Below are positions 18,737 through 41,576 of a stretch of DNA of 64,000 bases, in pieces. The stretch covers positions 166,012-230,011 of the forward strand of contig JACTMY010000017.1 in assembly GCA_014584395.1 (NCBI GenBank). Direction: 5' to 3'. The position numbers and the translations under genes were made by a program. The first letter of the stretch is position 1; every line of letters starts with the position of its first letter. The notes beneath the pieces were generated by a model. It did no database searches. It was given only the letters and a program-made list of their open reading frames with translations, and was not told the origin of the DNA. This DNA is from Planctomycetota bacterium (GTDB lineage Bacteria > Planctomycetota > Planctomycetia > Gemmatales > HRBIN36).

Positions 18737-20701
<1,965 letters not shown>

Positions 20702-20795
20702 GTTCTATTCTCCTTGAATTGAGTCGTGCAAACGTCGGGTGCCTCGCCTACACGTGATGATTTCGCGTTGACTTGCCCATTAATGCCAGGATTAA

Positions 20796-20811
20796 AGCAA
20801 TCAATGTGCCG
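20796..20811 (-). promoter_or_regulatory. Sigma54-like -24/-12 promoter for dnaK
   Basis: On the minus strand the sequence reads CGGCAC-ATTGA-TTGCT. Against the sigma54 consensus TGGCAC-N5-TTGCW only the first base differs. The invariant GG and GC are present with the required 12-bp register. The predicted start is near 20785, giving a leader of about 84 nt. Repeated palindromes lie 90-160 bp upstream, where enhancer-binding proteins usually bind. This is a motif reading only. Confidence 0.5.
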
Positions 20812-20898
20812 CATGAACTAAGAATAATTATTTTGCGTAAGTAATTGATATAATAGAGTTTACGAAATAATTTATAAGTCCGTCTCGGAATTTTTGAC

Positions 20899-20972
20899 TG
20901 CCAAAATGAACACGTCAGCCAAAATGGCTTAGTCAGAGTTTGGCTTCAGCAATAGCTGTTGCCAAAATGGCA
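20899..20972. promoter_or_regulatory. Repeated GCCAAAATGGC palindromes, putative operator/enhancer sites
   Basis: Three related sites lie in the dnaK-pheA spacer: TGCCAAAATGaac (20899-20911, right arm degenerate), AGCCAAAATGGCT (20917-20929, perfect arms) and TGCCAAAATGGCA (20960-20972, perfect arms). Each has 5-bp arms around AAA. Sharing the core GCCAAAATG three times in 75 bp of non-coding DNA is unlikely by chance and suggests cooperative binding of a dimeric regulator. They could serve dnaK, pheA or both. The rest of the spacer (20702-21090) is AT-rich and includes TATAATA near 20850 without a clear -35. Confidence 0.55.
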
Positions 20973-21090
20973 TGACGATTTGGATTTTTCACCGGAACCT
21001 GTTGTCCTCATCAAGTTTCTGATTGACGTGTGTCTAGTAGCCCCATAACATGTTACGAAATTATCAAGATTTTTCGCCACGAGATGGGAC

Positions 21091-22215
21091 ATGACGCGCA
21101 AATCGGACAGTCACCCGGCCTCCGCCGCCAAAGCCGCCGCTCAACTGAAAGCCTTACGATCCCAGATCGATAAGCTGGACCACCAAATCCTGAAATTGTT
21201 GAACGAACGGGCCGCCCGTGCCGCCGAAGCGGGCCAGATCAAATCCGAGCAGGCGAACGAAATCTTCGCTCCGGCCCGCGAGGAAGAAATCCTGCAAAAT
21301 CTGCTTCACAGCCACAAGGGGCCGCTCGACGTCCAAACGATCCGTGCCATCTTCCGCGAATTGATGAGCGGCTCGCGGGCGCTGCAGAAAGTGCTCAAGG
21401 TCGCCTACTTGGGGCCGGAGTACAGCAACTGCCACCTGGCCGTCATCGAACGCTTCGGCACCAGCATCGACTTCATCGGCGTCGGCAGCATCCCGGCCGT
21501 GTTCGAGGAAGTCAACCGCGGCCATGCCGACTTTGGCATCGTGCCCCTCGAGAATTCCATCGATGGACGCTTGAGCGACACGTTGGAGATGTTTCTCCGC
21601 CTGCCGCAAATCCACATCACCTCCGAGGTGCGCTTCCGCATCCATCATCATCTCATGGCGAACGTGACGCAGCAGGAGATTCGCCGCATCTACAGCCGGT
21701 CGCAAATCCTGTCGCAATGCCGCAATTGGCTGAGCAAGAACGTGCCCCACGCCCAGATCGTGGAAGTGACCAGCACGGGCGTGGCGGGGGAATTGGCGCA
21801 GCGCGAGCCGGGCGCCGCCGCCGTCGCCAGCCGCCACGTGGCCCAGCGGTTTGGACTCAAGATTCTATTCGAACAAATCGAGGATTCCCTGGTGGGCATC
21901 TCGCGCTTTGCCGTCGTCGGCAACCATCCCGCTCCCCGCGGCGGCAAGGACAAGACCGCCCTGCTCATCCACCTGGGCAAGCACCCCGGCAGCCTTGCCG
22001 ACGCTCTGAACATCTTCAAGCAAAACAAAGTCAACATCGGCGTCATTGAATCCTATATGGCCCGGTCGGGCAAGGATGAGTCGGTCTTCTTTCTCGACTT
22101 CGAAGGCCACATGGATGAGCCGAAGAGCAAACGCACGATTGAGGCCCTGCACAAACGCTGTGAAAAGGTGACGGTCCTGGGATCGTTCCCCGCCAGCATC
22201 GTCAATGATGAGTAG
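21091..22215 (+). CDS. pheA: Bifunctional chorismate mutase/prephenate dehydratase (P-protein)
   Basis: Converts chorismate through prephenate to phenylpyruvate in phenylalanine synthesis. Residues about 15-95 form the AroQ mutase (LRSQIDKLDHQILKLLNERAARAAEAGQIK). Residues about 105-285 form the dehydratase, with AYLGPEYSNCHLA, FGIVPLENSIDGRLSDTLE and the catalytic-type TSTGVAGELAQ. A C-terminal ACT domain (DKTALLIHLGKHPGSLADALNIFKQNKVNI and IESYM) should give feedback control by phenylalanine. At 374 aa it has normal P-protein length. The dehydratase signature usually reads TRF; here the equivalent is SRFAVVG. It is divergent from dnaK and is closed by an intrinsic terminator. Confidence 0.95.
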   Translation: MTRKSDSHPASAAKAAAQLKALRSQIDKLDHQILKLLNERAARAAEAGQIKSEQANEIFAPAREEEILQNLLHSHKGPLDVQTIRAIFRELMSGSRALQKVLKVAYLGPEYSNCHLAVIERFGTSIDFIGVGSIPAVFEEVNRGHADFGIVPLENSIDGRLSDTLEMFLRLPQIHITSEVRFRIHHHLMANVTQQEIRRIYSRSQILSQCRNWLSKNVPHAQIVEVTSTGVAGELAQREPGAAAVASRHVAQRFGLKILFEQIEDSLVGISRFAVVGNHPAPRGGKDKTALLIHLGKHPGSLADALNIFKQNKVNIGVIESYMARSGKDESVFFLDFEGHMDEPKSKRTIEALHKRCEKVTVLGSFPASIVNDE

Positions 22216-41179: not shown

Positions 41180-41576
41180 CTCGTCCCAAAAACCGGATGC
41201 TGCGACTCGGAGGCAATGGACTGATCAGTGAGGATCGGTTTGCTCAAAAGGTCTATATAGACACAATGGGTTTCAGTTCCCTGCCAGGGCCCATCCAAGC
41301 CATTTTTTTGCGTGGCACTCTATTTGCTCATTTTTCTGCGAGAGTGAATCCTGCCCTGGTATTCCTTGAGTAATGAACGGACCTATGGCTCGATTGTGAA
41401 ACGTTCTTGAATCAGGTTAGCTCTTCTCTGTAGCCTAGAAGCAGCAAAGCTTGGCGATGAATAGATGCCTCTGCGGGGGAGCCTTCGAGGGGCGCTATTC
41501 CGACCAACGAGTGCTTGGAGCAACTCGCCCAACCCTTGACAAGTTCAAGACGCTATCCGAACCGGAGGAGCCGGAG
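41180..41576. other. 397-bp regulatory spacer after parA
   Basis: It holds two perfect palindromes, ACTGATCAGT (41220-41229) and GTCTATATAGAC (41251-41262), a consensus sigma54 element (41313-41328), and a lone TTGACA (41536-41541) without a partner -10. Open frames here are shadows. Confidence 0.5.
41313..41328 (+). promoter_or_regulatory. Consensus sigma54 (-24/-12) promoter upstream of the glucan genes
   Basis: TGGCAC-TCTAT-TTGCT matches TGGCAC-N5-TTGCW at every defined position, and the GG and GC are in the correct 12-bp register. The start is predicted near 41339, on the strand of the 69-aa gene, the glucosidase and the amylase. Two palindromes lie 50-95 bp upstream. Confidence 0.6.

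Follow-up and report, generated by a model that had tools for sequence, protein, structure and literature searches.

The window analysed here, a stretch of 64,000 nucleotides (C13:166012-230011), comes from a planctomycete assembly of 3.7 Mb that is 87% complete. On its minus strand lies dnaK, whose closest dnaK sequences are found in Gemmatales and other planctomycetes. The gene and the elements recognized upstream of it are as follows, all on the minus strand:

18737..20701, minus strand: dnaK (Hsp70), an open reading frame with a GTG start at 20701 (PF00012, E=3.4e-252).
20710..20715, minus strand: ribosome-binding site AAGGAG, seen in the sequence.
20785, minus strand: predicted transcription start, 12 nt past the C of the -12 box (20797), placed from promoter geometry.
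20796..20811, minus strand: sigma54 -24/-12 promoter CGGCACATTGATTGCT, a sequence match kept in relatives.
20836..20864, minus strand: inverted repeat CGTAAACTCTATTATATCAATTACTTACG (CGYAAS-N17-STTRCG), 53 bp before the -24 box.
20900..20910, minus strand: incomplete half-site TTCATTTTGGC, the third in the row, seen in the sequence.
20916..20930, minus strand: enhancer palindrome 2, AAGCCATTTTGGCTG, 119 bp before the promoter.
20959..20973, minus strand: enhancer palindrome 1, ATGCCATTTTGGCAA, 43 bp from palindrome 2.

The original prediction placed a sigma54-dependent promoter with upstream palindromes before dnaK, and its reading of the DNA is borne out by the sequence. CGGCAC-ATTGA-TTGCT runs from 20811 to 20796 on the minus strand and differs from TGGCACN5TTGCW at a single position (the first base, C instead of T), with the GG and GC of the -24/-12 box in the correct register, 10 bp apart. 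The proposed leader of 84 nt ahead of the GTG agrees with a start at about 20785. The palindromes are present as well, at 20973-20959 and 20930-20916, together with the half-site. The claim that these parts form a complete sigma54 layout stands for the DNA elements, while for the activator there is a candidate only. The promoter and both palindromes of the window each depart from consensus.

Taken alone, the promoter match at dnaK is near the chance level and unconvincing. The pattern with at most one mismatch occurs 147 times genome-wide, close to the 133 occurrences of the reversed pattern, and the score of the dnaK promoter is attained by 8 of 300 shuffled versions of its upstream region. 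Both figures would suit a fortuitous resemblance in an A+T-rich intergenic stretch. Because the pattern is no outlier in the genome statistics, counts from a single genome are not taken as proof, and it is conservation in relatives, rather than the single match, that lifts the dnaK site above chance. With the element conserved in many genera, alongside common upstream sites and chaperone targets, a chance origin appears highly improbable. Four exact promoter matches occur in the genome. One of them, TGGCACTCTATTTGCT, lies in the window itself (41313-41328, plus strand), with a small hypothetical ORF about 120 nt after it and no palindrome upstream.

Conservation was assessed at 21 planctomycete dnaK loci, and a sigma54 element was found upstream of dnaK in all of them, with the GG/GC pair kept in the leaders, as had been anticipated. 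In a free search, the best upstream match scored at least 9 of 11 at every locus, compared with 7-9 on the reverse strand; a score of 9 is reached by 6-18% of shuffles, and six loci exceed all 300 shuffles. The element lies 76-324 bp from the dnaK start codon, and these varying distances, together with unrelated flanks, make shared descent of an unselected stretch a poor explanation. At least one palindrome, and often two, occurs within 520 bp upstream at 17 of the 21 loci (threshold, at least 9 of 12 positions against CTGCCA-N3-TGGCAG). Paired palindromes are mostly 42-45 bp apart (43 bp in the window), and in most loci the palindromes lie 90-123 bp upstream of the sigma54 element. The consensus that they share is CTGYCA-N3-TGRCAG. 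At four loci (L031, L033, L063, and L050) the promoter is present and a clear palindrome was not found. In L031, L033, and L063, TGACA-type repeats (for example, GTGACAAAATGACAC or GAATGACAAAATGACAC) take the place of the CTGYCA palindrome, which suggests from sequence that the enhancer has diverged in some members of the group.

Comparable elements were also sought before other heat-shock genes, and pattern searches of the window's own genome located sigma54 elements before groEL, a unit of a receiver-domain gene and groES, and clpB. The layout search in this genome returned dnaK, groEL, and one more place, and the exact motif CTGYCAN3TGRCAG occurs genome-wide at the groEL site only. CCGCCAAATTGGCAG with TGGTATCAGCTTTGCT precede a lone receiver-domain gene that is followed by groES, while clpB is preceded by TGGCACGATGATTGCT, another of the four exact promoter matches, with imperfect palindromes nearby. 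The receiver-domain gene (PF00072) directly before groES, with its sigma54 layout, lies in L274 1698-2430 (own C4, near 93600), and receiver genes follow a sigma54 layout in relatives too (L280 and L293). The 11-mer GCCATTTTGGC has 7 copies in the genome, 2 of them inside the window, and no convincing promoter was seen downstream of the five outside it.

The layout was also sought in 149 genomes with the pattern GCCANNNTGRC, 78-108 bp, GGCANNNNNNTTGC. The order gave 170 matches and other families of the class 99, as opposed to 38 and 24, respectively, with the pattern reversed, so that the combination of enhancer and promoter is enriched about four-fold over control across the class. Among the first 30 loci, which were selected by the search tool, 17 precede groEL, dnaK, or hsp20, and the palindromes of the remainder are mostly incomplete. 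Another 40 loci, chosen by the authors for palindromes that appeared complete, mostly precede groEL, dnaK, groES, clpB, hsp20, or a receiver-domain gene. When genes were assigned by BLAST, 42 of the 46 loci with complete half-sites turned out to precede groEL, dnaK, groES, hsp20, or a receiver gene, and one of the four exceptions extends past the contig end. Elements of this kind before other heat-shock genes were thus also found in relatives, at groEL, groES, clpB, and hsp20. The clearest candidate for a non-chaperone target is L281 (G048 C3, near 356800), where a complete enhancer and promoter precede a glycosyltransferase-like gene.

With regard to spacing, complete sites cluster at enhancer-promoter distances of 90-93, 99-101, 110-111, and 118-120 bp, whereas incomplete sites form no such clusters. 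The clusters are separated by about one helical turn. Relatedness among the loci and the abundance of groEL sites at 90-93 inflate the P values for this phasing. After near-duplicates were merged, the best period in the dnaK set was 10.5-11 bp. At the sequence level, then, what is shown comprises the elements together with their conservation, spacing, and common target genes.

Between enhancer and promoter, a third element, CGCAAG-N17-CTTGCG, keeps a constant spacing to the -24 box. At 16 of the 21 dnaK loci, the best match to this inverted repeat lies 44-45 or 52-57 bp upstream of the promoter, compared with 2-3 of 21 expected if it fell anywhere. Six of the 21 loci also belong to the discovery set; among the other 15, the match lies at these distances in 11. 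Its position suggests a DNA-bending site or the site of a second regulator. Since the repeat keeps its sequence and its phase relative to the promoter even at loci that lack the palindrome, it could itself be the true activator site, with the palindromes binding a repressor or a regulator unrelated to sigma54. Against this, the palindromes lie at the classic enhancer distance, often as pairs 42-45 bp apart, and are helically phased, which makes such an exchange of roles rather improbable.

The genome encodes the factor that such promoters need, as rpoN is present (PF04552, E=5.8e-61), and this result and the conserved GG/GC pair together support the sigma54 reading of the dnaK promoter. The stated lack of CIRCE also held, with no such motif within 420 bp upstream of dnaK. 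HrcA was not found in the 87%-complete assembly, and the best RpoH score (TIGR02392) was 162 against a cut-off of 323 among the 10 of 18 candidates scanned; these two absences are not final, given the completeness of the assembly. The candidates belong to 18 proteins with sigma70 region 2, most of them ECF-like.

A sigma54 promoter might be real and yet secondary, with basal and heat-induced dnaK expression coming mainly from a nearby sigma70-family or ECF promoter. The many ECF-like factors would fit such an arrangement, and a need for basal dnaK expression is to be expected. A precedent is the tandem sigma66-sigma54 promoter at hrcA-grpE-dnaK of Chlamydia trachomatis, described in PMC8762339 (citing Soules 2020). 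That system, related at the superphylum level, likewise has a sigma54 promoter before the dnaK operon; HrcA/CIRCE also acts there, whereas neither was found here and one enhancer is common to several chaperone loci. On the dnaK strand, no sigma70-like promoter was detected between 20690 and 21130 with a model that leaves ECF-type promoters aside, and the sigma70-like site on the opposite strand is consistent with the divergent gene at 21091. A secondary role for the sigma54 promoter is accordingly considered somewhat unlikely. The reading preferred is that 20796-20811 is very probably the sigma54 promoter of dnaK, activated from the CTGYCA-N3-TGRCAG palindromes.

Candidates for the activator were sought among sigma54-activator domains (PF00158), of which the own genome has six strong genes and a seventh that is degenerate, and enhancer-binding proteins from seven genomes were grouped. 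The best candidate, held tentatively, is C1, an NtrC-type response regulator with receiver, AAA, and Fis domains. C1 occurs in 136 of 149 genomes, and its recognition helix (GISLKTLYNKL) is nearly invariant across the class; the complete genomes in which it was not found include G110 and G146. Its gene adjoins one for a membrane protein that resembles a sensor kinase by eye. C1 was not found in the window's own 87%-complete assembly, and no palindrome precedes its own gene.

Other groups were set aside as the common activator. Group D (about 1000 aa, with membrane segments, GAF, AAA, and Fis) was rejected since many genomes with the sites lack it, for example, G033, G051, G054, and G011. Group A (NtrC-like, upstream of mutL, and near-universal) has a recognition helix that is not conserved beyond the window's family, and no group E protein (FHA-GAF-AAA) was found in G019, a genome that bears the sites. 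Several observations on individual proteins may be recorded separately. An activator of about 1000 aa with predicted membrane segments, GAF, AAA, and Fis is encoded in the own genome (L220 3021-6098, minus strand, own C17); it has a PDZ-like stretch by eye and is present in 25 of 61 relatives. Near the start of group A genes (L217), some genera have CTGCCA-type palindromes, and the group A gene of G002 (L185) comes after a groEL gene. The NtrC-like protein of L223 (3000-4424, minus strand, own C5) lacks the GAFTGA loop, so that the usual contact with sigma54 is unlikely.

RNA polymerase with sigma54 is held in a closed complex until an enhancer-bound activator loops over to it. At dnaK, the polymerase would accordingly sit on the promoter as an inactive closed complex, and an AAA+ activator bound to the palindromes, roughly 120-160 bp upstream, would loop to the promoter once switched on. 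The inverted repeat at 20836-20864 would probably aid the loop or bind a second factor. As related sites stand before groEL, groES, and clpB, and before hsp20 in relatives, one common activator could switch the main chaperones together and induce them without a new sigma factor being made. Promoter use, looping, heat response, and the activator's identity are predictions of this scheme. Extended to the class Planctomycetia, it would make the core heat-shock genes a sigma54 regulon, in which one conserved two-component activator, with C1 as the best candidate, acts on CTGYCA-N3-TGRCAG before dnaK, groEL, groES, clpB, and hsp20, together with the second conserved site, in place of sigma32 and HrcA; this wider proposal is possible, at somewhat less than even chances.

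Bacterial heat-shock control is usually described in terms of sigma32 or of repressors such as HrcA. Like the HrcA/CIRCE and sigma32 (RpoH) systems, the arrangement proposed here would control dnaK, groESL, clpB, and small heat-shock genes coordinately; those systems use a repressor or an alternative factor of the sigma70 family, and neither marker was found here. The shared layout points to an activator-driven heat-shock circuit unlike these two textbook ones. Promoters of the NtrC/NifA type have a -24/-12 box, paired palindromic sites about 100-150 bp upstream, and possibly a bending site between them. The layout at dnaK is alike, and its targets here are core chaperones. We know of no described activator that matches CTGYCA-N3-TGRCAG. 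Part of this layout may appear already in the account of Pirellula sigma54 activators by Studholme and Dixon in 2004. In the literature searched, which was that open without subscription, no description was found of a common enhancer, of the third element, of the phasing, or of the receiver-groES unit.

In Planctomycetia, sigma54 promoters have been predicted for the DnaK, GroEL, GroES, Hsp20, GrpE, and DnaJ groups (PMC12316311, PLoS One 2025). That survey, in the portion of its text consulted, deals with promoters only, scored by COG enrichment; it covers the same phylum and genes, and that portion names no enhancer motif, third element, spacing rule, or activator. The dnaK promoter thus belongs to a class predicted only recently, and the new part is the shared enhancer architecture.

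In Rhodopirellula baltica, chaperones rise upon heat shock while rpoH and rpoN transcripts are unchanged (PMC2754498), and the present proposal, if true, would explain this induction. The enhancer motif offers a direct handle on the activator and its signal. If the proposal is true, a large bacterial group would possess a third heat-shock design, signal-gated and enhancer-dependent, that is silent without its activator.
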